Shown here one piece after another: positions 26,347-59,067 of a DNA stretch of 64,000 nucleotides. Positions within the stretch are counted from its first letter, which is position 1, and each line of letters opens with the position of its first letter. Below the pieces are notes generated by a model, which saw only the letters and a list, made by a program, of their open reading frames with translations, ran no database searches and was not told the DNA's origin. The DNA comes from Antrodiella citrinella (lineage: Eukaryota > Basidiomycota > Agaricomycetes > Polyporales > Steccherinaceae), in contig SGPM01000014.1 of the NCBI GenBank assembly GCA_004802725.1, positions 124,001 to 188,000 on the forward strand, read 5' to 3'. Position numbers and translations under genes: made by a program.

Positions 26347-28517
26347 ATGCCTTTCTCCAAATCTCTAGCAGCGGTCATTGCGCTCAGTGTTTCCGTACAT
26401 GCAGCCATAGGTCCGGTTGCCGACTTGCACATCACCAATGCCAATGTCTCGCTAGACGGGTTTTCTCGCCCCGCCGTCTTGGCTGGAGGCACATTCCCCG
26501 GGGCTTTGATCACTGGCAATATGGTGCGGCAGACGTACTACTGCTAATTGATGTGTCGCTCAACTGACTGGGTTTGTTGCAGGGCGATAACTTCCAGCTC
26601 ACTGTCTTCGATGATCTGACCGACGCTAGCATGCTCACGGGTACCTCCATTGTATGAGACAATGACTGCTATTCTTTCAGCGAATTGCTTGCTTACGAGG
26701 ATTTGACTTGATAGCATTGGCATGGATTTTTCCAGAAAGGAAGCAATTGGGCTGATGGAGTCTCTTCCGTCACCCAGTGCCCTATCATCTCCGGGAACTC
26801 CTTCGACTACAACTTCAACGTTCCGGATCAAGCAGGTACGTTCTTCACCCAATCATTTTTCGCTTTTGTCCTGACCGTACTCTTAGGCACCTTCTGGTAC
26901 CACAGCCATCTGTCTACTCAGTATTGCGATGGTCTTAGGGGTCCCTTCGTTGTCTATGACCCGAACGATCCCCAGGCTAGCTTGTACGACATTGACAATG
27001 GTGTGCACAATTGATTAATCACTCAAGTCTTCACGACAAACATCGACCTGTTTTTATTAGAGGACACCGTCATTACGCTTGCAGACTGGTACCACACTTT
27101 GGCCCAACAAGAAACCATCGGTGCTCCAATCACAGCCGACGCGACGTTGATCAATGGTCTGGGACGCAGTTTCACGAACACTGTTGCATCTGATCTGGCA
27201 GTGATCACCGTCCAATACGGTAAACGGTGTGTGACAAGCTCTTCATGGCGAAGAGGCCAACTAATATTGTGTGTAGCTACCGTATGCGACTCATCTCTAT
27301 ATCGTGCGATCCCAACTACATGTTCTCCATTGACAACCACGACATGACCATCATTGAGGTCGACAGTGTCAACAGCCAACCGCACACTGTCGATCAAATC
27401 CAGATCTACGCTGCTCAACGCTATTCGTTCGTGGTACGTCTCTTTTCCCCAGATGTTTCGCGGCATTTTCGCTGACTTCGACCTCCAGCTCAATGCCAAC
27501 CAGTCCGTCGGTAACTATTGGATCCGCGCCTTGCCCAACAGCGGCGGTTCCGACTTCAGTAATGGTATCAACTCAGCCATCCTCCGCTACGAAGGCGCAC
27601 CTGTCGAGAATCCTACGTCGACCGTCCCAGATCAGTACAACCTACTTGTGGAGACCGACCTCCACCCTCTTACCCCTATGCCCGTGGTATGTAGGTTCAC
27701 AATATGGCTTGGTCATGTCGCTTCAATTTCAGTTTTTTTGTAGCCAGGACAGGCCTTCCCCGGAGGAGTTGACTTCCACAAAACACTTGCGTTGGGCTTC
27801 AACGTCAGTTAACTGGTTGCCTACTGCCATCTACCACGCTGATACTCTTTATCGTATAGGGCTCCCGCTTCACCATCGATAACGTCGCTTTCGTCCCCCC
27901 TACCGTACCTGTGCTCCTCCAAATCCTCAGCGGTGCTCAGACTGCTCAAGATCTCCTCCCGAACGGTAGCGTCATTTCTCTTCCCGCGAACTCGGTAATC
28001 GAGATTGCGATGCCCGGTGGAGTCGTAGGCGGCGGTCATCCTTTCCATTTGCACGGTGTAAGTCTTCCCTTGATTCTGATACGCTTCGTGTGCTTACACG
28101 AGTCATCCTAGCACAATTTCGCTGTGGTCCAGAGCGCCGGTAACAGCACTCCCAACTATATCGATCCTATCTGGCGTGATGTCGTCAACATTGGCACTGA
28201 GACCACTGACAACGTCACGATCCGGTTTGAGGTGAGCAATCCTTGAACAGCATTCAAAACCTCTGACGTCTCATGCTGGAATCTCCACAGACCAACAACC
28301 CTGGACCTTGGTTCCTCCACTGTCACATCGACTGGCATCTTGAGGCTGGTTTCGCTGTTGTCTTTGCTGAAGATATCCCCGGCGTGGCTGCTGCCGACCC
28401 GGTGCCTCGTAAGTGTCTTTGTCGTTCACTACAATGCACCGGTTCTTACATGATGTTACAGAGGAATGGAGCGATCTATGCCCCGATTATTATGCTGCTA
28501 ACAACATCACCGCCTGA
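26347..28517 (+). CDS. lcc: Laccase (multicopper oxidase), copy 2
   Basis: Secreted phenol oxidase, paralogue of copy 1. Exons 26347-26523, 26583-26651, 26715-26835, 26887-27000, 27061-27226, 27277-27433, 27489-27686, 27744-27803, 27860-28057, 28112-28231, 28291-28408 and 28462-28517 give 517 aa, normal for basidiomycete laccases. Signal peptide [20 protein letters not shown]. Copper motifs [41 protein letters not shown] and [14 protein letters not shown] are complete, with Phe at the axial position. It differs from copy 1 near the first copper motif (VSSVTQCPI against AFVTQCPI). The C-terminus reads [17 protein letters not shown]. Its 3' end faces the F-box gene, about 275 bp away. Confidence 0.96.
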
Positions 28518-28792
28518 CGTTGAGTGGCACGCTCCTAGTGATGATTTCGAAATGAGTCGACAAAAGGTCGATGTTCTGGGATGTTGGAAGTCTGACTATC
28601 GGTATTATATGCTTTTAATTGTTACTTATCATGAAAGGGATGTGTATACGCGGATACTTGCAATATATTCTGGTTTACCCTTGAGATCCCTTATGCGAGG
28701 TAGTAGATGCATGAGAATACACACGAAGCAAACGGGAAGCACAACAAATACAAATGCCTCATCTGACATTCGGCTTTTCATCGCCTTCATCG

Positions 28793-30371
28793 CTACATAC
28801 TCTGTTCCGATTCCGAATCCTCTTCACTTCCGCTCCCGCTCCCGCTCTCGCTGCTGTCATCTTCGTCATCCTCATAGTTACGCCACATTGTCTTGTCTTT
28901 CGTCGCCTCTTCGGCCAGCCAAGACCGGTCTGGTTGTCTGTTCCACGCGAACAGCGCAGTGAAGCCCACCCTTTCCAACTTCCACGCATTCCCACGCATT
29001 TCCCCTGCCATATTTCTGTCCCATCCCTCCAGGATTTGTTTCTGCACGGAACTGTCCACGGCGTACTCGAATCGACCCCAATTATCGTCGACGTATTTGA
29101 ACCTCGGAGCGTCACTGAGCAGAAAGGACTTCAGGTTTGGAAGGTGGACGAATACCAGCGGCGCAAGCGCATCCAGTGCAGACTGTACCTGTTCAATCAG
29201 CGATAGCTCCCGAAAACCATGTGCTTCATGCACTCACCCAGCTCTCAGCCAAGTAAATTACCAGATGCTCCACGGTCTTCATAAACGGCACGACTCCCGT
29301 CAGGGAATCTAGAGACAGCTTTTGCATGTACATAGAGATACGTTTGACTCTCGTACCCTGCATTTGCGTCAGAACACCTGCGACGTGCTCCCAAGGGGGA
29401 GCTTGGAACCTAAGACGAGAATCTGCACGGTTACTGGCGTTGGTATCGCCAATAATGGTGTTGTCCATCTCAACGCATTCCAGTAGGGGCCTGCCATCCA
29501 GCAAACGTGTTTGAGACAAGACTTGAGAAGGACCAGAGACGCGGGTCAAGCGCGGAAGGAAGTTTGGAGGGATGTAGACAACTTGAATTGACGTGACGAC
29601 GTGGAATGGTTGATGTATAATGAGTGAAGTCACGTTCGGCGTGTGTTCAAAGAATGAATTGGTTGAAAAGGCCGTGAAGCGCAGCTCCAGAGTCGTTAAT
29701 GCAGGCCAATGAACCCCCGAGTGCATCAAGCCCCATTTTTCCGCGTTTCTGACATCTAAAGCTAGCACCTGCAGCTGTTCTGCGTGTCTGTCGCAGAGAC
29801 CGCTCAGATATTTTTGAAGCGGATCCGGAACGATAGAGCCCTGGGAGAGTTGGAACGTCTTCAAACTTGGCATGGGAGGCGCGAGCGTTTGCTCGAAAGA
29901 TGTCCAATCAGCTTGAATAGAGCCATTTCGTGTCCCGGTTTCGTCCAGCGAATCGAAAATTGATATAGATCGGAGAAGTTTCTTGTTGGCCAGAGCAAGG
30001 AAGATACGTGGAGTAATGGGGAACCCTTCTGTCATGGAGAGATGGAGGTCTTGCAAGCCTACCATTCCCTCGAGGCATTGGAGGAATCTCTTCTCGTGTT
30101 CTGCGTATCCCGCCTTGGAGAAATGGAAAGTGCTGTATCTCTCGGTTCGGATGGTGAGCGATCGAACCATGCCAGGAAGATTGAACTCGGTGGCTTTCGA
30201 CATGGTCCGGAAACACTTGCGCACAACTGACAAGTCGAGCAGCTCGATTTCAGCGTACACCAGGGGAGTGAATACATGTTGAAAGCCATCGGAAACGCGA
30301 CAAATTCGAGCCAGATCTTTCTTTCGCAAGTAACCAGCTATGCGGTGCAAGATCTCGACAGGCAGGTCCAT
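28793..30371 (-). CDS. F-box/LRR-type protein
   Basis: Likely substrate receptor of an SCF ubiquitin ligase. Exons 30371-29238 and 29188-28793 (49-bp intron) give 509 aa. The F-box is at the extreme N-terminus ([20 protein letters not shown], then [10 protein letters not shown]). It is followed by leucine-rich stretches such as [11 protein letters not shown] and [11 protein letters not shown], typical of the degenerate LRRs of agaricomycete F-box proteins. The C-terminus is strongly acidic and Ser-rich ([20 protein letters not shown]). The ATG at 30371 is the first in the frame; the frame is open a further 51 bp upstream, so a short 5' exon could exist. The target is unknown. Confidence 0.88.
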
Positions 30372-32767: not shown

Positions 32768-33832
32768 TCAAGTTGGCACCACGTTGGTGGTTGTGAAATT
32801 GACAGTGGAAAGCTAGACCCACTTCAGACACGTTGTAGAACAAGATTCCTGAAGGAGCTCCTTACCTGGGTAAGCATGATTGCAGCGATACTATAATCAC
32901 TGTTCCCCGTCTCCTTGTACTCCGCCAAAACTCTTGGCAAGTCCTTACATCGTCGTCAGCCAATGCATGCAAGGCACCTACTACAAACTCACAATAACTG
33001 GTCCGGCACCACGAGTTTGTCCGGCCCAAAGCAGCACCGATGAGACATCTTCTGAAAGTCTGGACTTGTACTCCTTCAGATACTGGAGAGAGTTCGCAGC
33101 AGCTGTTGTAAGGGCAGGATATGCGTCTAGATCCGTCTTTGCTCCATCAGAGGTACCGGCAGCTGCAGATGCAGCGTCGTAACTGGTCGCATACGACTGG
33201 GTAGTGATGAGAAATTGGGTAAAGGCTGCTTCGTATGTGAAGAATGCTGTAGTGACGCTCTGTGTACAGATTGCAGATGAGTGAGATTTGACGGAGTGTA
33301 TCGAGATCATAAAACGTACTGTGAGTACAGTCCATACAGGATCAGTTCTGGCACTTTCGGACGTTGCATTCAAGACGGTACCCATGGCGGTCACGAACGC
33401 TAGAAAAACGTAAGTATGAGTGTAAGGAAAGATCGTGTCGTCTTACCATTGCTTATTGTAGCCAGTGTCACAAGGTCTGCGACGGCCGCATTCACGGGAA
33501 CTTGCCATCCCTAGCAGCCCAGCACAACAGTCGTGAGCATACTATCAGTTGATCAGAAATTTGGTGTACTTACAGTCTGAGCGACAGTCCAGTCCACGCT
33601 GGTGTTCTGCAAAGGGCCTGGGCCACCCATTGCAGATAGAAAACTGGATATCGCAAATGCATTGGCCTGTTCTCGGGCCTCAGTTTCATGTCATTACAGG
33701 TACAGAACTGCAGTGGTCACTCACAGACAGCTTCTTGAACGTTGTAGTGGTATTTGCCACACCAACTTTGAGGGCCGGGAGGGGAGAAGAGGACTTTAAC
33801 CGGCGTCCGACGATGGGAGGAGACTGATACAT
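32768..33832 (-). CDS. P1: member of an unrecognised four-gene family of small Ala/Ser/Thr-rich proteins
   Basis: I do not recognise the family. Exons (minus) 33832-33725, 33666-33574, 33510-33447, 33399-33320, 33259-32993, 32943-32866 and 32812-32768 give 244 aa. Exon sizes 108, 93, 64, 80, 267, 78, 45 and phases match P2-P4. Shared features: exon 3 begins Gly-Trp (GWQVPVNAAVADLVTLATIS); exon 4 ends with SARTDPVWTVLT; exon 5 is a long, probably helical, segment ending SEDVSSVLLWAGQ; exon 6 reads DLPRVLAEYKETGNSDYSIA. No signal peptide or zinc motif is seen. The start at 33832 is chosen by similarity of exon length; the frame is open farther upstream. The last splice (TCTAG at 32813) is less sure. 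It is the only copy on the minus strand and stands 6.9 kb from P2. Confidence 0.8.
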
Positions 33833-34842
33833 GGCGGCGATAGATTTGATGACCTGTGTCGAGCACTTATACGCTGTTCCATGACACGGACAATGGCGCG
33901 TCCGGACTTGGAAGACATCTAGTGCACATTCTGCAATCTCCTGACTGCAAGCCGGATCTTGTGCGCTTGGGAGAAGACATGGATGCACACTGACGTGCCT
34001 CGGTATCGGGAGAGTCATCTACGACCTTATACAAGTTCAAGTTGCGAACAGAGTAAAAGGCATTAATGGAATGGCCCTGCGGCCTGCGTCAGGAGAGTTG
34101 AACCGGATCCGGGGATTTGTGATGTCCATGGGGTGGAGAGGAACCGCCGAAAGCGCGAAGTCGCTTATCTGCATCAATGGTCGCCCAGATGATTTGTGTA
34201 TAGCTGAGCTTTCACCGAAGGTACTGTACAAAGGATTGTACATTCGAATAAGACGCGTACGTGAATACTTCTGCTCCAACACTGACGATCTAGAAACGGG
34301 AGACCCCAGCTACGACCGAAGCTGACAATGTTCTGTTTGGGTAAGAAAGGGTTTTCACGATCCCGACTATTCGAGTACTCATGCGAGACTCACCTGGATG
34401 TTTCTCCCTTCCTTAATGGTCATTCTCGACTAGGTATGGTGTGAGTCCTGGCTCCCAGTTACTCCCGAGTCCTCTGGGATTACAACGAGAAACACGCATT
34501 GTACATAGTCGGTCCTAGGATCTTGCTTCAGAACTGTTGCACTTGTACCACAAGGCCAAACGTCTTGGCTTTGTTCAAGTAGGAGTAGGATGTGAAAGAC
34601 TGGCCAAATATTCGAACGACTCGAACGAGAGAGCGGACGAGAGCGCTAGTCGCCTAATTCACGGTGCGCTGCTGGAGGCGACGCGTTCTTCTCTTCCTGA
34701 GTCCTCCTCGTTTGTTCATCGTGCCAAAGAGCTCAACGCTGATTTTTCGTACGTCGAACATATCTCAATGTCACGACGGGATTGATCAACGCGTTGTGCA
34801 CCTCAGGAATCTGCAAATCGTGCTGCCTAAGCTCTGCCCAGC
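33833..34842. other. Intergenic stretch upstream of P1 and the MYND gene
   Basis: Shared divergent promoter region. Short open frames (34071-34325, 34537-34785) show no motif and no splice logic. Nothing else supported. Confidence 0.45.
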
Positions 34843-36498
34843 ATGATGCCTCGCCTCACATCCAAGCAATACTTCGGCGCATTGACCTCTGCAGCGCAAG
34901 AGTTGACATTGGCAGAGAAAAGTGGTCTTCCGATCCCAGCGCGTTTTGACTTTGGCACCAAGGAGGTCTGCGCCTATTGTCAGCAGAACATCGAGCCACC
35001 CAAAAAGCCTTTGCGCTGCTCTGCCTGCAAAGCAATCTTGTACTGTAGCAAGGAGGTGAGTAATTTGTTTCACTCTGTGTGAATCCGTTGTAACACCATA
35101 AAGTGCTCCAAAAAAGGTTGGAACTATGGAACTGCCAATGCCCCGCCCAATGCGCCAACTCATAAACAACTCTGCAAGGAGAACGCAGTACGTGTTTTAC
35201 GCATGTTTGAAGATGTGTGCTTGACCAGACTGCCTTCAGCGCCATATGACGCGTCTTCCCGATACACAGGCCATCCTGACGCAGTTCCCCTGGGGCCGTC
35301 TTGAGACGGACGGTTCTTTCAATCGCGACGTTGCCCGTGGTCGATACCGCGTGCTGGGCGGCGATGACATGGGATTCTGGAGTCACAAAGGAGGACCTGT
35401 TCCCCATCAGAACAGTGGTCCATTCTCGGCTGTCGCTTCAAGCATGGGGTATCAGACTGTCATGGCGCAAATGATAGAGGCGTTTGATCACTTGGATGGA
35501 AAGGACCTGCTTAAAAGTCGGCATCTCAGTGACGAAGATGGCTGGAAGCTTCCCTCGCGTCTCATTCCCTACCGCGAGTTTGCATCTGCATCATCTGCAG
35601 ACAAACGACCTGTGCTCGTCACCAATCTTGACGAACCTGTCAAGGACTGGGAATCGTGGTATCGATGGAGGAAGCTTCCGTTGGAGTCTCCAGTTGCTTT
35701 GATCATGGATTTCCCAATGAGCGTATACCAGCTGGTCACCAATTGCTTGCAGATTACGAACGCAACGAGGGGGAGCCCTGACAAGCGCATCCCGATCAGC
35801 CTCCAGATGCTTGGTGTTGAAGTCGAGCTGAATTGTCTTCCTATGTATGTCATTCTGTAGGGTCAATGTCGATTTCATCACTGACTGTTATTATGATGGA
35901 CAGATTCTCTGAACTTGCTCTGCTGCTCCCCTACCACGACATCAAAATTGTCATGGTCGGCTTTTCTGTCCATAAATTGTGCGTAGAGGCTCGCAAGCAC
36001 CCAAAATCTATCGCCGCCCAAGCATCCATCACCCAACCTACCTTCTCTTACACCGCACCTCAGGAATGCGGCTCTGGTTCCTTGCAGATCTTCCTCCACG
36101 GCGAGTCCCCGACCTGGGCCCCAGACAACTTTCCTTTCGGCCGCCCCGACGCGCTCATTGCCTGCAACGCCGGGCTTGGCTCATATCCAGACTGGGTCCC
36201 CGTCATACAAGCGGTACACATGTACGACATCCCATTCGGAGTGACGGAATACGCGGAGCAGTCTGCAGAGCACCAGCGGGCGGCGTTCCCCACTATGTTG
36301 GGATGGAAGCGTATATACCCTAGGAGCGATTATCCGATTGCTCTGAACCCCTTCCAGAGCCCTGGTCAACGAGGTATTCCGATGTACAAGCTGCCAAATG
36401 CGATCAATGGGTTTACGTTGGTGGTCGTGAAGCACGAGAAACTTCCGGAGCCGGCGGAACACCTCGCGGCCAGGATTGCAGAGCTTGATCTAGACTGA
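34843..36498 (+). CDS. MYND zinc-finger protein with Mss51-like C-terminal domain
   Basis: Exons 34843-35055, 35104-35187, 35270-35844 and 35904-36498 give 488 aa. The N-terminal MYND finger holds all metal ligands: CAYCQQNIEPPKKPLRCSAC, then LYCSKECSKKGWN and a final HKQLC. The rest resembles the conserved C-terminal domain of Mss51 and related proteins, with ESPVALIMDFPMSVYQLV, the LNCLPIFSELALLLPYHDI core, DALIACNAGLGSYPDW and GVTEYAEQSAEHQR. Yeast Mss51 controls COX1 mRNA translation in mitochondria, but the MYND plus Mss51_C architecture is widespread in fungi with mostly unknown roles, so a mitochondrial role is only a possibility. There is no obvious targeting peptide. The two adjacent ATGs at 34843 and 34846 are both possible starts. 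Confidence 0.9.
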
Positions 36499-36698
36499 TG
36501 TTCTTGCTGGCACGCCTTCAGACTTCCGTGCAATTGTGTCTTCGTATGTGACTGATGTATCGATACCTTCACTGTGCTGCATGTACGTTACCACTTGAAC
36601 GCAACTTTACACTACTGTACAATCTGAGATCTGAGAGGTTATAGTTACATTCTTCTGCAAGAAATCATATCAAGGTGAACATTGAATAGGCCCGACAC

Positions 36699-39669
36699 TC
36701 AATCGACTAGAGTCTTCGCTTGGTCGACAAGAGCAATGAAATCCAACCCGGCCGACCCACCGACTCTCTCAAGATACTCCATAGCCTTTTCCAGCAAGAT
36801 ATCCAACAACTCCGGATGGGAAGCAAGATGCTTCTGATAATACGCGACTGCAAGGACTGTTGCCCATACTGGCGGGTCCACCTGCGCTGGACGCGATGTA
36901 GGCTGCAAAGCGGCTTGCCCCACGATCAGGCCAAGCATGGAATTGAGAGAGAAGGACCCATCGAAGGACGACAGCTTCACGAGATCGTAGACGGCCTGAG
37001 GAATCTCAGAGGGTGGGCTTTGATAAACCGGCTGTGAGAGTGACGTCGAAGCATTTCCAGCTTGTTGTCCGTCACCACCACCGGACGACGGCGTGTGGTG
37101 GATCTGGGGAGAGGGACTTCGCGGTCTTTGGTCGTCACCAGTCCGGCGGCGTCTGCGAGAACGAGCGTCCTCATCGCCAGAGTCTGAGTCGGAGTAACTC
37201 TCCAGTGTACTGATCGTCGTGAAAGTTCTGTCGGAGCCGTATCCTGGGTCATCATCCCTATCAGAATCACTTGTGTCGGAAGGGTAGGCACCTGGGAAAC
37301 GCGGGTCTGCGTCCCTAAGAGGAGCCTTGAACAGAAGATTTTTGTACGGTTCGGTGAGATACTCGGTAAAAACGGTCAGGAAGGTGGCAGTATAGTCCAC
37401 CGCCGACATGACAAAGGAGCCTATGCCAAGAGCAGCGGCTTCAGCGTTCGCTCTCATAAGGCCGATCTCCTGCCTCCCAGCACGTCTGCGTCTAGGAAAC
37501 CGCGTGAAGGACGATGAGCGACGCCGAGTGTCCAACGCGAGCTCCTGTTGCTCACATTCCACCGCGACGAAGGAGGTGTAACGACTGGCGAGCTGGTACC
37601 TCTCCCCGAGTTGGACGATAGAAGCTTTCTTGTCGGGTTCTGGGATATCAAGACTGTCTTGGATCTCCGTGATGAGTCGACGAGCAGCGAGGGTATGGAT
37701 GAGAGGGATACGGGGTTCATCGCTGGTGAACCTTACTTCCTCCACCGGAATCTCGATCTCCACCTGATCTGCATCTGCATCCCTCTCAGCCTCCAACGTG
37801 ATGAACTTCGGGGCGACGAAGTTGTCGACCTTGATCATGGCAAAAACAACGAAGCGGTAGCCTGGGGAGATCGACTTGATCACAGATGGAGTCTGTCGCA
37901 GTGGGGCCGCGTGTCCACTGAACCTGACCGAGGACCCTTGCATGGTGGCAGAGTCCACGATCAAGTCTTGCGGAACGCCCCAATCGATAGACACCTTCTG
38001 CAGAACGCCTGTTCTCCCAGCTCTCATCATTTTCATGCATTTGGGCAAAATCGCATGTGCGTTGGGAGCCATAAGACAGTCACCGTTACCAGCCCTGGCT
38101 ATGTTCTCGCATGCGGCGCTGGATGCGGTCTCTCCTATTCCAAGAGTGAAAATGCGAAGACTGGCTGTATCAGATGCTTGCTTCACCGCCGAAGATACAA
38201 TTTGGATTGACTCGTCTAGGTCTTCGAATACCTGTACATTTTGAGTGAGTGAAACGAAATCGCCAGAGAATTGGATATGCGCTTACTTCGCCGTCTGTCA
38301 GCACGAACATCACAGTGGGGACGGAACGCCTACGACTGCGAACAGCGTATTCTAATGCTTCCCGGATTCGGGTCCCCCCTCTAGTCTGGATCCCCTCGAC
38401 TCGATCAGCCTTTGAACATGCAACACAATTCATTATGTCTCCATAAAACAACGAAGGAAACTAATGGACTTACGACATGCCGAAGACTTGTCTGGTCGTA
38501 TCGCTGGCTGCGAGGGTACACCGCCTCGACAGTATCGTCAAAGGCAATGACGTTGAAAATTGTACCGTCCTGAGGTAAGGAGTGGAGAAGGATGGTCAGG
38601 GTCCGCTTTGCGATACCGATACGTGATGTGGCCGGGTCCCCGCTCATGCTGCCGCTGCGGTCCAAGATGAAAATAAATTCTTGCTCCTGTATACGAGGAC
38701 GGTCATATTTGGGCACCATGGTCAGTTGCATAGCGACCGATTGTGGGTCTTTGGGATCGCGCTCCACAAAGGACCGCGGTTCGTCCAGTCCTTCTGCACT
38801 CACACAGAGCACGAAGTCCTGCGTGAGGTATTCCGTGGACGAAAATTCCGCCGTAGCTCGCCGCCGTGAGATCGAATCACGATATCGGTACGGCTTCACG
38901 GTCAACGCTGAGTGGGTGGGGCTGGTGATGTCCTTGATATCGCCTTGCATTTGGATGTTGACCTTGATGGAGACCCTGGTCTTCGTGCTCACGGTGGAGG
39001 CATTCACCATTCCTTCTGGCATACGTCCATATCGTTGGCCGATAGACATGGGTAGTTGAAAACGTACCCCGTCCGTGTAATCGCCGGTCATGAGGTTCAA
39101 CGTGTACTGCGATCAAGTGAGTTTGCGGACAGTATGCAAGACCAATGTAGACTGACCGTCAACACAGTAGTGACCATCGCGTTTCCGGGAATGGGGCCAA
39201 TCGATATTGTGAACACTACCGCAGGTTCTTCAGTTAAATCAGCGAGAGCAGGTATCATCAGAATGACATACGATCATCAGTAGCCCACTCCACCAGACTC
39301 GTCATCTTCCCATCAGTTAGAGCTTGCTGGTGGTCCTGTTCAGCCTGTTGACGTTCCTTGGCGACCCCATAAATGATCCGGCCATCGCAGATCATCTCGA
39401 ATGCGCGTATGGCTGCACTGGCAGGCAATGGGAAAACATACTTCGCCCTTGGACTCGAGTCATCCGACGAGTTATCGAATAGTTGCGTCAGTGTAACTCT
39501 GGCCGATACTTTGAATTGCATCAGATACAAGCGGACCAACATCATGTTCAAGGGGTTTACCGTCAATGACAAGGGCTTGGACCACGACGCTCATCAACGG
39601 GATGTTGACAAGATGGCCATCAACATCGGTATGGACTATACCATGCGTAGGGGTGGACGGGGAAGCCAT
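36699..39669 (-). CDS. VIT plus von Willebrand factor A domain protein
   Basis: Exons (minus) 39669-39561, 39508-39272, 39227-39157, 39106-38474, 38409-38287 and 38231-36699 give 901 aa. The N-terminal VIT (vault/inter-alpha-trypsin) domain has VSARVTLTQLFDN and AKYVFPLPASAAIRAFEM. The vWA domain has a complete MIDAS start, FIFILDRSGSMSG (DxSxS), then GGTRIREALEYAV and VMFVLTDGE. The long C-terminal exon ends in a linker rich in Ser, Asp and Pro (around residues 760-830) and a short helical module. Proteins of this layout are common in fungi, slime moulds and animals and are thought to mediate metal-dependent protein binding; the partner here is unknown. No signal peptide or TM segment seen, so probably cytosolic. 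Confidence 0.9.
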
Positions 39670-40745
39670 GGTGGAGAGGATACTGAGAGATTTTGCCCGA
39701 GTTCAAGTTTAAAGCATCGATATCCCACTGCTGCGTAGCAATCAACTCCCATAATCGTTCGCGCAGCTGGCACGATAATTCTATAACCGGAGCGGGCACC
39801 CAACTCCAGAGAGCAGACTGGTGACCTACAAACAGGAAACGCTGACGCCGCAGGACACGGGGTGAGAAACCTGTATGCCACCGTTGCCCAAGACGTCAAT
39901 AGACAGCGCACGAATTGCAGGTCTTGTGACTGACCATTGCTGCATACTCGTCGAGCACTATTCCCCGACTGACATGTTTGCTGGCACCAGGAAATCCCAG
40001 TATATGGCGCAATTGATCTACGTCTCTCAAGAGAGGTAGGATTGAACGTTGAACCCATGAACGATCTGCAGGTCGTCGTCGTCAAGTCTTCCTCCAAAGC
40101 TCGGCCGCTTGCCTTCCGACTCCCTGGTTTCCACCTCGATATTCTCCAACAGGCGTTTTTGGAAGGATATCGGTATGGTCCATGACAAGATATTATAGGT
40201 GCTGGCACACAATCTATACATGTCCGTTCGAGTGCAAGTCTCGACTCTCGAGCGATTTGTAAGTTATTGACAAAAACGGTTATCGGAGTGTCAAATTTGG
40301 GCTCCGGGCCGAGGGTCACGGTTGCACCGCTGCAGCGCTTTGGATGATCGATCCTCGACGGTAGACCTACCGTGTCCAGACTCCAGAGTATTGATACAAG
40401 CTGGCGGCAGTACGAACTCGGAGCGACAATATTCTAAAGCTAACTATCACCGTGACTGGAGAGACGTACCATTCGTAACGGTGGCACACATCCGCGAAAT
40501 CAACCTCAGATCCGGCGAAATGTTCAAAACTTCGTACTGCAGACAAACTCCGAGAAATTTTGAGTCATCTTCCTCCGGCGACACTTTAAATGATTACAGA
40601 TGAACCTTTCTGCGATACCTGACATCGGGAGAAGTCATTGTCTCGCTCAATCTCCGACTAGACATCCTTCATTTAAGAATCACCACCGCGACGGACACAG
40701 TCAAGTTCTACTATTTTGCGTTTCTCCTCTGTATTTTCGATTGTC
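39670..40745. other. Intergenic region between the VIT/vWA gene and P2
   Basis: Divergent promoter region. A 227-codon minus-strand open frame (39636-40319) crosses it and the start of the vWA gene but shows no family features. CT-rich DNA precedes the P2 ATG; no clear TATA box. Confidence 0.45.
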
Positions 40746-41812
40746 ATGTCTAACGATACGTTCAGCCTAACCGTGGGGACGATTAAGCTGGGTTTGGAGC
40801 TCATAGTGGTGAGTCGGCAGAATGTTCGCTCCAGACTGCAAGCTGATCTTTGTAGATCGCAGCTAACGTGGCTGTCGTCATGATCGACATTCCGCTCAAT
40901 ATCAGTCCCACTGACCGAGTGATCTTGTTGAAGACCGTAAATTGGACGATAGTGACCGGGGTGAGTAATTTGATTAGTCCAGTGTCCTTCAGGCTTGAAA
41001 GTCTGACTTACTCGACATACAGTGGGCCGCCCTCACCGCACCTGTGACTGCATATTTCCAAGCTTTGCAGAACATGTTGGCAGGTATGTACACAAATATC
41101 GCTTCTGCATTTCAGGCATATCTCATTCTGCTCAGGCCTTCAGAACAGCTTAAGCATTGCGCTGAACGGTACCACTGGAAGTGCTCGCACCGATCCGCTC
41201 TGGAGTATCGTCGCCGTACGTCTTGTGCATGTCACCGTACTCCTGCAGACGCTCATACCTTGCATCATCGTACAGAACAGCCTTAGTGCCAGTAGCTCAT
41301 TCCAGACCGCACTGCAGGCCCTTCTCACTTTTCAACAAGCAGCGACGAGTGCAGCTAGCGGCTTCCAAGCGGCTGTTGAAGCAACGGGCACTGGCACTGA
41401 TTCGACAACAGCCGCCACGTTGGCTGCGATGCAAAATATGGTTTCGTACATTCCAACAGTGATCCAGTCTTTCCAGTCTATGAAGACGTATCAAAACACT
41501 CTTGCTGAGACTGTAGCTGGGATCATGATGTGGGCAGCCAAAGACTCCTCCGGCTCGGATTCAGTATACTGCGTTATTTCTCACCGTATACGAATGCTGA
41601 TGGTGCTTGCTTGTTAGGACTTTCCGTTCGTGCTGAAGACGTTCAAGTACACTAACACAACACAGTATGCGGCTGACCTTTCTGTGACCACTGCAGTGAG
41701 TTCAAGGGCTTAGCGTCCAGATCGTCCAAGATTGACTCTGCCATTTCAGTACGTTGCGCTCGATTGGTCAAAAGTTGTTATGACACCCCAAGGGCCCACC
41801 TTTACGAGCTAG
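40746..41812 (+). CDS. P2: member of the unrecognised four-gene family
   Basis: Exons 40746-40808, 40856-40960, 41023-41083, 41136-41215, 41276-41563, 41618-41695 and 41750-41812 give 245 aa (exon sizes 63, 105, 61, 80, 288, 78, 63). The N-terminus MSNDTFSLTVGTIKLGLELI leads into an amphipathic, hydrophobic exon 2. Exon 3 starts with Trp (WAALTAPVTAYFQALQNML). Exon 4 carries the family motif SARTDPLWSIVA. Exon 5 is Ala/Ser/Thr-rich and probably helical, ending ETVAGIMMWAAKDSSGSD. Exon 6 reads DFPFVLKTFKYTNTTQYAAD and exon 7 closes with LDWSKVVMTPQGPTFTS. No signal peptide, Cys pattern or catalytic motif seen. First of three tandem copies; closest to P3 in the exon 5-6 region. Function unknown. 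Confidence 0.85.
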
Positions 41813-42248
41813 AACATGGGACAGGCTATGCGATACACTGGACAGTTTCGCATACGGCGAGTTGGTGGACTCACTGAAAGAGCCGAACGCGTGTACACGA
41901 AAGCAATTGTTGTTACCTTGTTCTGAATATATGCTCCATCGCATTGAACGCGGCTCAGCGCTCAGGTCTAAGACTGAGCGATCTCGTGTGATCATACTCA
42001 GACTTGCTTACGAAGGATCTTGGTCTTACTTCGTAAAGGACCTCCATCTTGCAGACCTGAATTTGTACCGAACAATGTCCCACTAGTACGTACATAGATC
42101 ATAATTCCTCTCGCTCACTCGGAATTTGACATATCCGGACAGCAGTTACAAACGCCGAGTCGGCGAAACGTTTCGAGTGCGAGCTTGTTCTACGCTCCGG
42201 AAAGGCACATATCAGCATTAAAACTATTGAGATCATCGCTAGTATTGC

Positions 42249-42256
42249 TATATATG
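42249..42256 (+). promoter_or_regulatory. TATA-like element upstream of P3
   Basis: TATATATG lies about 140 bp before the P3 ATG, in a 577-bp gap with no other gene. A plausible core promoter; distance allows a 5' UTR of about 100 nt. Confidence 0.4.
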
Positions 42257-42389
42257 AGGCACCGATTCACGTCGAGCGTCGGGATTTCCTACGCAGTTAT
42301 TTTACCTTTCGCCAACGAAGTTGCTTCATTCCACTGACTCCTTCACTTGAAACGCACTCGGACGTCTCTGTTATCTCATCACACAGGCC

Positions 42390-43447
42390 ATGAGTAAGTC
42401 AGTAGCGAATGTGCCGGCTAATCTGGCCGCCTTGAAGACTGCGTTTTCCGGGATTCTGGTGAGCTCAGTTTAAATAGATCTTATACTCATCGTTCAGCTC
42501 ATCTCCCGTTGTCAACGCTTTTCTAGGTCGGCGCAAACGCACTCGCTGCCACTGAGCCAAAGATGCTTGCTGCTGGGTACATCACCGCTGCCGAGGCCAG
42601 TGTAGTTGACTGGGCCACAGCCAGCACGGTATGCCTATCGCATCTTGTAGTAGTATTCTTTGACTGACTTGTATCATGTGCTAGGGATGGGTCGCACCTA
42701 TAGCAGCCATCACTGCTCGTATCAACGCGTTAGTGGCATTGTCGAATGGTACGTTGACTAGAACCCAATCATGAGTGATCGTGGTATCTCAAGTGGTTTC
42801 GTTCCGCGCAGCATTATCCGCTTGCTTGACCGTAGTGTTGGCTGCTACCTCCGAACCCGTTCGCACCGATCCTTTATGGACCTTGATCGCGGTATGTTTT
42901 CTTCCGTTTGACCTCTTCTCGCCGGGAACTCATACATCCCTGAAGAACATCAGCAATACACAGCGCACATCCACGCAAGCACTCGTCTCACTCCAACAGA
43001 ACGTATCTACTTCTCTCACCAATTGGAACGCGGCGTTGACAGCTGCAAATGCGAACACCGCCGGACCTGTTTCCGCCATCACGTCTTGCTTGCAAACTAT
43101 AGTCGGGGCGATCCCGAGTGCTATCCAAGTCTTGCCGTTCTTGGATCAGTATCAGGACGCGCTTGCTGCAGATGTGGCTGGGATAATGGTTTGGGCAGCG
43201 AAGGATACTGCAGGTTTACAGGCTGTACGTGTCAGCTCCCGATCCTGGCTTGCTGAAATCTAACGTTGTTCCATAGGACGTGCCGTTCGTTCTCAAGACA
43301 TTTGAATACACCAACACGACTAGTTACGCTGCTGATGCTGCTGCTATGACTGCGGTGAGTGTGACATACATTTCGACATCCAGTTACTTACCTTGACTCT
43401 TTCAGTTCACTGCTACCAACTGGGCGGCGATACAATCCGTCCAGTAA
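42390..43447 (+). CDS. P3: member of the unrecognised four-gene family
   Basis: Exons 42390-42458, 42527-42628, 42685-42748, 42812-42891, 42946-43224, 43277-43354 and 43406-43447 give 237 aa (exon sizes 69, 102, 64, 80, 279, 78, 42). The N-terminus is MSKSVANVPANLAALKTAFS. Exon 3 begins GWVAPIAAITARINALVAL. Exon 4 ends with VRTDPLWTLIA. Exon 5 (from NISNTQRTSTQALVSLQQ) is long, Ala/Thr-rich and probably helical, ending ALAADVAGIMVWAAKDTAG. Exon 6 reads DVPFVLKTFEYTNTTSYAAD and exon 7 FTATNWAAIQSVQ. The exon 5 acceptor (CTGAAG at 42945) is chosen by alignment with P2; an alternative CACAG lies 17 bp farther on. No recognised domain. Confidence 0.85.
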
Positions 43448-43541
43448 GGACCAAAGTAATGTCAACTATAATATCTCTCTCTATCATACGGCTTGGAATA
43501 AACTGCAATGGATTAGTTAGAACTACGGAACGACCCCCGAC

Positions 43542-43564
43542 GCCCCGCTCGTCATGAGCGGGGC
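43542..43564. repeat. Perfect GC-rich hairpin
   Basis: GCCCCGCTC and GAGCGGGGC form a perfect 9-bp stem around a GTCAT loop, 16 bp before the tRNA-like sequence. It could be part of a small mobile or tRNA-associated remnant. Confidence 0.7.
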
Positions 43565-43579
43565 TCGGTGGCTTTCACT

Positions 43580-43676
43580 GCCCGCGCCTAGCTCAATCGG
43601 ATAGAGCGTCAGACTCTTAACGAGAGTCCCAGCGGGCACAGGCTGCGAGTTCGACGTCCGACCCTCGCGGTGGGCT
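43580..43676 (+). pseudogene. Disrupted tRNA-Lys(CTT) gene with intron-like insert
   Basis: The 5' part reads as a good tRNA: acceptor strand GCCCGCG, D-arm TAGCTCAATCGGATAGAGC, and an anticodon arm GTCAGACTCTTAA with anticodon CTT (Lys). After the anticodon comes an insert where an intron would sit. The expected 3' anticodon strand TCTGA is missing. The T-arm GCGAGTTCGA...CCCTCGC carries a 7-nt duplication-like insert (CGTCCGA). A TGTTTTT pol III terminator follows at about 43684. I read this as a relic; a functional tRNA would need very unusual processing. Confidence 0.65.
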
Positions 43677-44357
43677 ACTAGCTTGTTTTTGCTCCGCTCC
43701 AATGTCCCGGTGCATGGGGTCCACGGAAATTTTCGTCCGATCATTTCAGCGGTTTTCTTGGCACATGTTTGTGAGTTGCGTGCCTCAGACATCGGTTTCC
43801 ATTGTCAGTCTTGTAATATGATAAACACTGAGAACAGCATAAAGAGTGGAACAAAGTCTGGCAATGTCGTCGCTTACGCGTCCGACGGAGGTCGAACAAA
43901 CTGCGACGCGTCATGCACGTGACCTAAGCGTGACCGTGTGCCGTAGACGCCAGCCAATGACCATCCCTTGGGCCTTGGGGCTACCTCCCGGGCTTTCTTC
44001 CTGCCTTCGCCCAACCTCTCTCAGTTCTCATCAAACTCATCATTACAACGACCGGTGATATCTGTGCTCGGATGTCTGATAGCAATGTGCCGCGACCACA
44101 ATACGCACAGATAATTAGCAGGAAAACGCGCCGGAGCTGCAAGTTGCAGCGCTAATGACATGCAGTCTCCGGTGCTATGTCGTGACAAGGGGAACTGAAT
44201 ATTCTCGTCCAGGGGTGCCTAAGACCGGGGGCTCGAGATCAACTGCGTGTATACATTTATATGTGACTTGGAAGGTGAGTTTCAAGCTTACTCACTCCCT
44301 TCTCCACTTGTTCCCCCCTACTTACGTCGACTATATCTGTATTGTGATAGTGCTATT

Positions 44358-45461
44358 ATGCCAGCTCGCATCAGCCGTGGAAACCCAGACGGAGAGGTGA
44401 CTACGGGAGTGACTATTGGTGAAGTGTCCATGGATGTCAGACCAGGCGTTGCCGGTTGTACGTCCGCTATCCAAGCTCTCGTCGTAAGGACATGACTTGC
44501 ATCTTGCATGCTACGTTTCCTGACCAGAATTCGCAGACCAACGCAACGTTGATCTCTCTCTTTAATCAGACTACCTTGCCCGCCAGCACGAGCACTGCAG
44601 CCGTTGACTTCAATGCAGCCATTACCGTGCGTATCTACCCTTGAAACCCGGCACCGACGACTCACATTGTCCTGTGCAGGGCTGGAAAACACCAATCGCT
44701 GCTGTAATGACTGACGCTACTACCGTCGCCAACCTCTATTCTCGTACGAGGTTCCTTTAGTCTGGTCATGCATTAAACTAAAAGCGGGGCACAGAATTCG
44801 GCTCTACTCTGGCGATTATCCAGTCCGGTCAGCGAAGCGGTGTCCGAAAGACAGCTTGGGCGTTCATGAACGTATGCATACTCTCCCTTATTATACAACG
44901 CCTTGAATTACAACTGACTTTGCGATGGTACCAGACTGTGAACCGAACCATCCTGACAAGCGACCAAGCCCTAGCGACGTTCCAGCAGACCACAGAAAAC
45001 AACGTCAATAACCTGCAAGCTCTTCTGACTCAAGCCAGCGTCAAAGCACCCATCTTGAACAACTTCAGGGACTACGTCGTGCAAGTGGAGAAAGTCCGCT
45101 CCAAGGCGAAATTCTTGAAGGACTGTCTCAAGTCGCTCGCTATGGACGTGTCGGACGCTGTGATGTGGGCGGGGAGGGATGATGCCGGCGATGCCGTAAG
45201 TTTTGAACATCTACATCTGGTGTCTGGCGGTGGTATCTAATATGTTGGGATGCGTGTGTAGCAGCTACCCAGGGCGATCAGGCAGATCCAAGGGACTGAC
45301 TCCAACAGGTATACCGACAGTGCGGCTGTGCTCAACTCGGTGAGTGTGCAACTTGTTGTTTGTTGGCAATTTGCGGGAGGTCGCTGATGTGTTTCTGGCA
45401 TCAGTGGACGACTCTCAATTGGCCTTCGACTGCCGTTCTGCCCCCATCCTATCTCATATAA
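44358..45461 (+). CDS. P4: most divergent member of the unrecognised four-gene family
   Basis: Exons 44358-44483, 44537-44626, 44680-44743, 44795-44871, 44935-45195, 45262-45339 and 45405-45461 give 250 aa (exon sizes 126, 90, 64, 77, 261, 78, 57). The N-terminal exon is longer than in P1-P3 (MPARISRGNPDGEVTTGVTI onward). Exon 3 again begins with Gly-Trp (GWKTPIAAVMTDATTVANLY). Exon 4 ends VRKTAWAFMN instead of the RTDPxW motif. Exon 5 is a long helix-like segment ending MDVSDAVMWAGRDDAGDA. Exon 6 reads QLPRAIRQIQGTDSNRYTDS, and exon 7 WTTLNWPSTAVLPPSYLI keeps the x-L-N/D-W motif of the others. Identical intron phases show common origin despite low identity. Function unknown. Confidence 0.82.
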
Positions 45462-57423: not shown

Positions 57424-59067
57424 ATGAATCTCGAGAAACTCCAGCCATTCCCTTCTCAGTTTGTTCTTCAAGACCTCACGAGCATCACGGGTACGGTCTT
57501 CAAGCTGAAGATCAACCCACTACAGGAAAAGGCGTATGAGTTCACTCGAGCTTGGTTTGTGAAGTGAGCGAAGATCTCCGCCGTTCTGTTTCTCAACTGA
57601 CCCTTGATATAGTCTAGGTGTATATTCGGAACCTAAACAAAGCAAATTTCTTTCGCACCGTTTCGATCTCTACGCGGGCCTGAGCTTCTCGGACGCCGAC
57701 CTCCAACATCTCGACACATGCATAGCTTTCTTCCTTTGGGCTTTCTCCGTAAGTTTCCACTTGCGTTGCGCGTGTAAAGTCTTATCTTACTCACACCGAT
57801 TCCTTAGTTCGATGATTTGTCGGACGAGGGAGAACTGCAATCGAAGCCGGAAAGGGTGCAAATTGGAGTAGACATCACCATGGGCGTCCTAAACCATCCC
57901 GACGCGCCTGCACCCCAATTCAAGTATGCTGCTATGTTGCACGAGTAAGTCTGTCGATTGTCTACTGAGCGTCAGGAATTTATTTCGTTCCGTCTCATAG
58001 CATCTGGAGGCGCTTCCGTGCCACTGCGAGTCCAGGTGCATGCAATAGGTAAGCCAAATCAAGCCCCGTCAAGCTCTCTACTTATCGATTCCCTTGTGTA
58101 GGTTCTACCGAGCCGTTGCCAGTTGGATGAAATCCCAGGTTGAGCAAGCTCAGCTGAGGTCGGACAACAGGACACCGTCTGTGGAAGAATTCATCCTGCT
58201 GAGGCGGCGTACTATTGGTGGAGAAATCGTTGAAGGTGCGCGTTTTATGTTCTATACATTGGACCAACTGCTTATCATTCTTCTCTGTCAGCTATGGTTG
58301 AATACTCGCTGGATCTCAAGATCCCCGAGTGGGTGTGGGACCATCCAATTCTGGTGGGCATGTCGCACGCGGTCATCGACGTCATGACCTGGCCAAATGT
58401 CAGTTTGGAATTCATCAACTGTAATTCATAGTACTGATTTCCGCTGTCTCAGGATCTGATCTCATTCAACGTCAGTCCTACTGTTATTGCTTTCACGACT
58501 CGTTACTCACACTTCTACGAATTGCAGAAGGAACAGTCGGACAATGATTATCAGAATCTGGTCGTCTGTGTCATGCTAGAACACAATACAGACCTCCAAG
58601 GCGCCGTCGATATCGTGACGAAGATGCTTGCTCAGCGAGTCGCTGATTACGCCAACCTCAAGAGTAGACTCCCCTCGTTCGGTCCCGAGATCGACGGCGA
58701 ACTCTCCCGCTACCTCACAGCGTTAGAGCAATACACGCAGGGGACCGTTGTCTGGTACTACGATTCTCCCCGTATGTTCTCCATATCCTCCTTCCATCCT
58801 CTACTCTCGCTCATTCTATCCACAGGTTACTTCCGTGGCATTGACCTCTCTAACAAGCACAACTTGCTTATCCCTGTATATCCACCTTCCACCGACGCCT
58901 CGCGTCCTTGGGCTGTAACTCGTCAGAAAGTCGTTGATCGGCTTGTGCTTCAAGTTCCTGTTGTTGTTCGCATTGCCCTCGCAATAATTGCTATCGTCAG
59001 TCTGTTACTCTGGCAATTTGTTGTACCATCTGCAACCCGACTCCACGTTGGTCCTCTCTCTCTATGA
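57424..59067 (+). CDS. Sesquiterpene synthase (class I terpene cyclase) with hydrophobic C-terminal tail
   Basis: Cyclises farnesyl diphosphate to a sesquiterpene using Mg2+. Exons 57424-57563, 57613-57748, 57808-57944, 58001-58048, 58102-58235, 58292-58398, 58453-58470, 58528-58771 and 58826-59067 give 401 aa. The aspartate-rich motif is in AFFLWAFSFDDLSDEGELQS. The NSE triad is N-D-LISFNKE, with the 18-nt exon 7 coding exactly DLISFN. The R-Y pair is in YYDSPRYFRGIDL. Normal fungal enzymes end soon after; here about 60 more residues follow, including a helix VVVRIALAIIAIVSLLLWQF that looks like a membrane anchor. A further open stretch after a TTTTAG acceptor near 59115 (TPLNEILSGATVDLPESAQR) could be a last exon, so the 3' end is uncertain. 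The product terpene cannot be predicted. Confidence 0.9.

Follow-up and report, generated by a model that had tools for sequence, protein, structure and literature searches.

Lineage-specific tandem families of orphan genes are a familiar kind in fungi. Here, four genes named P1 to P4 are compared with this kind and with two described groups of helical proteins. The genes lie in a window (the whole stretch of DNA that was analysed, 64,000 nucleotides) from Antrodiella citrinella, a polypore in the family Steccherinaceae. This window belongs to a 202 kb contig of an assembly of 30.0 Mb, against 33 Mb stated in PMC12878558. The first group is represented by the pink chromoprotein of Pleurotus salmoneostramineus (PsPCP), which binds a natural chromophore according to the title of its entry PDB 8ii8 and whose prosthetic group is given as an indolone in a review. 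The second group comprises the bacterial alpha-pore-forming proteins of the ClyA/HBL type. In PMC6162564 their common frame is a five-helix bundle, and the head or membrane-inserting region is placed between alpha4 and alpha5.

Judged by their sequences, P1 to P4 are a real gene family whose members are already public under the label 'hypothetical protein' (g1353 and g1356–g1358). The novelty is the recognition of these four entries as a single family that has retained its intron frame, together with the prediction of a fold. The initial annotation had called them the best candidate for a new system, which is too strong: they are a small orphan family in a local cluster, and such families are common in fungal genomes.

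Four gene models and their intron frame

The gene models, each of seven exons, have the following window coordinates:

33832-33725, 33666-33574, 33510-33447, 33399-33320, 33259-32993, 32943-32866, 32812-32768; minus strand; P1 (public g1353, 244 residues)
40746-40808, 40856-40960, 41023-41083, 41136-41215, 41276-41563, 41618-41695, 41750-41812; plus strand; P2 (public g1356, 245 residues)
42390-42458, 42527-42628, 42685-42748, 42812-42891, 42946-43224, 43277-43354, 43406-43447; plus strand; P3 (public g1357; 237 residues here, 243 in the public model)
44358-44483, 44537-44626, 44680-44743, 44795-44871, 44935-45195, 45262-45339, 45405-45461; plus strand; P4 (public g1358, 250 residues)

Spliced in this way, each gene gives an unbroken frame with a stop codon at the end of its last exon. 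The outer coordinates, the seven exons and the phases 0,0,1,0,0,0 proposed in the initial annotation were all reproduced, as were the lengths of exon 3 (64, 61, 64 and 64 nucleotides (nt) in P1 to P4), exon 4 (80, 80, 80 and 77 nt) and exon 6 (78 nt in all four). All 24 introns are of the GT...AG type and measure 47-68 nt. For intron 1 of P1 and intron 4 of P3 the acceptor was picked once the paralogues and the public models had been compared; the other acceptor reading gives 248 residues for P1 and 234 for P3. A 231-residue version of P3 served as query in the Pfam scan, the assembly search and one protein search.

With the chosen acceptors, P1, P2 and P4 are letter-for-letter identical to the public EUX98_g1353, g1356 and g1358 of A. 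citrinella, and the sole difference between P3 and g1357 is six extra residues in the latter. They stem from an exon 4 acceptor in g1357 upstream of the one that gives the 80-nt exon 4 of the family (window 42749-42811), which is probably a mis-annotation. The EUX98 models appear to be the annotation of the genome paper, where genes were predicted with AUGUSTUS and the main text has no mention of RNA-seq (PMC12878558).

Several comparisons indicate that the four genes are homologous and form one family. When a profile of three members was scored against the fourth, P1, P2, P3 and P4 obtained 103.4, 125.7, 157.7 and 85.3 bits, the best of 1000 shuffles per protein reaching 7.5, 12.1, 1.9 and 12.0 bits, respectively. 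In a protein alignment built without intron information, introns 1, 3, 4, 5 and 6 occupy identical columns and phases across the four genes; intron 2 agrees in both respects in three of them and sits one codon further on in P2. Random placement of six introns in each of two genes yielded at most two shared positions in 20000 trials. Pairwise protein identity is 22-36%. Furthermore, codon position 2 is the most conserved and position 3 the least in all six pairs, which is a coding signature. Synonymous sites have reached saturation (dS 2.3-4.2 in four pairs, not computable in the other two), so that no ratio of nonsynonymous to synonymous substitution (dN/dS) is given.

Nineteen columns are invariant, including T55-G56-W57, R94, W99, W189-A190, P202, T211 and Y216 (P2 numbering throughout). 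The motifs first proposed agree with this set in part. Gly-Trp at the start of exon 3, with Trp only in P2, describes the exon boundary correctly, but the protein reads T-G-W in all four members; P2 seemed to deviate because its Gly codon closes exon 2, intron 2 lying one codon later. In place of the R-T-D-P-x-W motif, P4 reads R-K-T-A-W. The motif W-A-[AG], said to end exon 5, is present near the end of that exon and not at it. For exon 6, where a Y-x-x-[TG] then Y/A pattern had been proposed, the invariant residues are P202, T211 and Y216 only. The proteins are rich in Ala, Ser and Thr and poor in Cys. P1 to P4 are four paralogues of one family, so far seen only in A. citrinella, that arose by duplication and diverged far in sequence while retaining the intron frame.

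Predicted fold and possible roles

AlphaFold2 models were built from the four sequences alone. The P2 model (mean predicted local distance difference test score (pLDDT) 78.1, predicted template modelling score (pTM) 0.80; of the five models, two stay under a score of 51) is fairly confident and all-helical, in line with the helical bundle that had been expected from composition. Its helices span residues 3-31, 39-48, 52-55, 58-86, 92-140, 146-195, 198-209 and 213-227. In the bundle, an N-terminal and a middle helix precede a pair of long antiparallel helices, which are connected by a loop of just 5 residues; small helices make up the C-terminal end. The P4 model is poor (pLDDT 55.6, pTM 0.53), and its long helices (28-54, 67-104, 111-152 and 158-198) follow a similar order. 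The stretch covered by the two long helices, as placed in P2 and including the loop between them, is 95-104 residues long in the four proteins; therefore none of them holds an inserted domain there. Because of the helix order (start of one long helix, end of the next, small helices), R94/W99, W189 and P202-Y216 should meet at one pole of the modelled bundle. The N-terminal helix is hydrophobic in P2, a property that P1 and P4 do not share. Simple hydropathy, the only measure applied, revealed no signal peptide, and the products are presumably soluble.

We tentatively propose that the product is a soluble helical bundle holding a hydrophobic ligand, which we consider possible yet rather unlikely. 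Self/non-self recognition, membrane-active defence and a structural role, the functions suggested in the initial annotation, stay speculative. By analogy with the similarly sized PsPCP, the bundle might bind a small hydrophobic compound, either a pigment or a lipid. The binding site would perhaps lie close to the pole at which the R-T-D-P-x-W and W-A-[AG] motifs and the conserved Pro and Tyr are expected to come together. A more specific version is a long shot: P1 to P4 would be a second mushroom chromoprotein set or pigment/lipid carriers, that is, headless ClyA-type bundles holding the lemon-yellow pigment of the A. citrinella pore surface.

Another role on a generic bundle comes close to an even call, and is likelier than either ligand binding or membrane activity. 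P1 to P4 would then be an orphan family whose role is hidden from the fold (a structural or fruit-body protein, or a protein-protein adaptor), and the bundle matches would be generic. Ligand binding is nevertheless placed first because this alternative names no mechanism; moreover, three invariant Trp and the invariant Arg, Pro and Tyr in a variable, Ala-rich sequence suggest a preserved site over mere packing.

As to the pigment, the 2024 structure paper on PsPCP reportedly names a laetiporic-acid-type polyene. The A. citrinella assembly gave five ketosynthase matches, four of which are pieces of one synthase on contig C161, the fifth (contig C601) being read by eye as a fatty acid synthase. 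The C161 pieces (L044 7080-9999 and L045 683-3825) belong to a type-I polyketide synthase, and no other of that type was seen in the assembly. The order of this synthase was read as SAT-KS-AT-PT-ACP-ACP-TE, the non-reducing type, with PT assigned from dehydratase-type Pfam matches. None of the 14 KR matches lies on C161 or C601, and no reducing polyketide synthase was seen in the assembly. With one non-reducing synthase and no reducing one, a pigment of the laetiporic acid type is unsupported; a polyene made in this way is unlikely, and some other ligand would be needed.

It is less likely again that the proteins are membrane-active and directed at other fungi, with a fold that is either related to the ClyA/HBL type or only resembles it. 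The frame of the P2 model, which resembles the pore formers, gives a hint in this direction; the hydrophobic N-terminal helix of P2 and the habit of A. citrinella, described as a mycoparasite of Fomitopsis pinicola (PMC12878558), would also fit. However, P1 to P4 leave no room for a membrane-inserting head and, by hydropathy, lack a signal peptide. Finally, the very remote reading of P1 to P4 as pseudogenes, or as spurious gene models drawn on non-coding DNA, in whose favour stands the ab initio gene prediction of the genome paper (PMC12878558), is largely refuted by four intact seven-exon frames, GT-AG borders in 24 of 24 introns, shared intron positions, leave-one-out scores of 85-158 bits and the higher conservation of codon position 2 than of position 3 in all six pairs.

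Search for relatives and genomic setting

A match to a named family was accepted at the curated cut-off, or at E <= 0.001 where none exists. No family reached threshold in Pfam (best 17.1 bits, E 0.0075, against a cut-off of 27), in NCBIfam (best E 0.018, one of the four proteins) or in PHROGs (best E 0.044, one of the four), and PADLOC gave no match up to E 0.1, which bears out the initial statement that no named family could be assigned. A viral structure library gave no match at E <= 0.001. Capsid-, fusion-protein-, tail- and holin-like matches to families or PDB sequences were weak, differed from one member to another, and were put down to noise from composition or coiled coils.

A protein search with the four-member profile returned three proteins, all of them A. 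citrinella members (7996 candidates scored), and one with P3 returned two, again both members (7998 scored). The scored candidates are those sharing most words, and Ala-rich words probably fill the list. With the C-terminal part of public P3 (118 candidates) a single A. citrinella protein was found; even the paralogue P2 was missed, so that this search is weak evidence. Taken together, the three protein searches gave no protein besides the four family members. Among viral contigs, 48 stretches matched the pattern of the family profile and none was confirmed; among prokaryote genomes, public P3 alone as query gave 78 pattern matches, none confirmed. Restriction to A. citrinella means that the family was not seen elsewhere in these protein searches of limited sensitivity, the viral contigs and the prokaryote genomes. 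Literature searches that named A. citrinella or covered related themes listed no paper on P1 to P4.

Translated searches of the 30.0 Mb assembly, from which very diverged copies could escape, found no further copy. The matches fell inside the cluster in 7 of 7 cases for P1, 11 of 11 for P2, 12 of 12 for P3 and 7 of 8 for P4. The remaining candidate, a weak P4 match at C161:4405 (E 0.06), was rejected by eye; it contains a stop and its frame is short.

P2, P3 and P4 stand in tandem, and P1 lies inverted about 7 kb off. A domain scan of 28 open frames of the window showed two genes outside the family between P1 and P2, in the stretch 35225..40319:

about 35.2-36.5 kb; plus strand; gene with an MSS51_C domain, g1354 by its place in the numbering
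about 36700-40320; minus strand; gene for a protein with VIT (E 2.8e-21) and VWA_2 (E 4.7e-7) domains, g1355 by its place in the numbering

Farther out lie parts of a 2-oxoglutarate oxygenase, a multicopper oxidase (C-terminal part at window 28273-28959, plus strand), two F-box genes, a PX gene, a pfkB kinase, SPT5 and a terpene synthase (C-terminal part at window 58522-59064, plus strand). Among the genes from the scanned frames nothing points to a single common pathway. Between P3 and P4, the stretch at window 43580-43675 (plus strand) resembles by eye an intron-bearing Lys-type tRNA gene. It was reported neither by ARAGORN nor by Rfam at the gathering score, and may be decayed or not a tRNA.

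Comparison with known systems

PsPCP is, like P1 to P4, an agaricomycete protein, and its length is similar (225 residues in the chain). In the structure search the P2 model overlays 8ii8 nearly end to end, and 8ii8 returns for the P4 model too. The identity in the structural alignment with P2 is 12%, a background level. 8ii8 is absent from PDB sequence searches with the family up to E 10 (one with a C-terminal part only) and from one more to E 1, which proves little at such a distance.

For the P2 model, ranks 1-14 are filled by the bacterial ClyA/HBL/Nhe/Mak/Ahl/Smh alpha-pore-forming proteins, a hint at a similar helical frame. From the helix order, the long hairpin of P1 to P4 would occupy the same place as alpha4-alpha5 of this group. 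No head or membrane-inserting insert was found in it: the P2 model has its 5-residue loop, and P1, P3 and P4 carry no extra residues. The proteins are also smaller, with 237-250 residues against 285-365 for most ClyA/HBL-type chains among the structure matches (AhlC 177-259), and no sequence match to the group was found.

If P1 to P4 do bind a ligand, orphan fungal genes would be tied to the fold of one mushroom colour protein and of bacterial pore formers, and would provide protein-bound colour from a source open to direct test. Should they be chromoproteins or carriers, the frame of a bacterial pore former would serve ligand binding in fungi. If ligand binding is false, they are still a clean example of a fast-diverging, apparently taxon-restricted family whose intron frame has outlasted most sequence similarity. 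Like the lineage-specific tandem families of fungi, they combine tandem and inverted copies in one cluster with high divergence and the lack of a known domain; the retention of six introns in place despite strong divergence points to an old family and not to genes that arose de novo in recent times.
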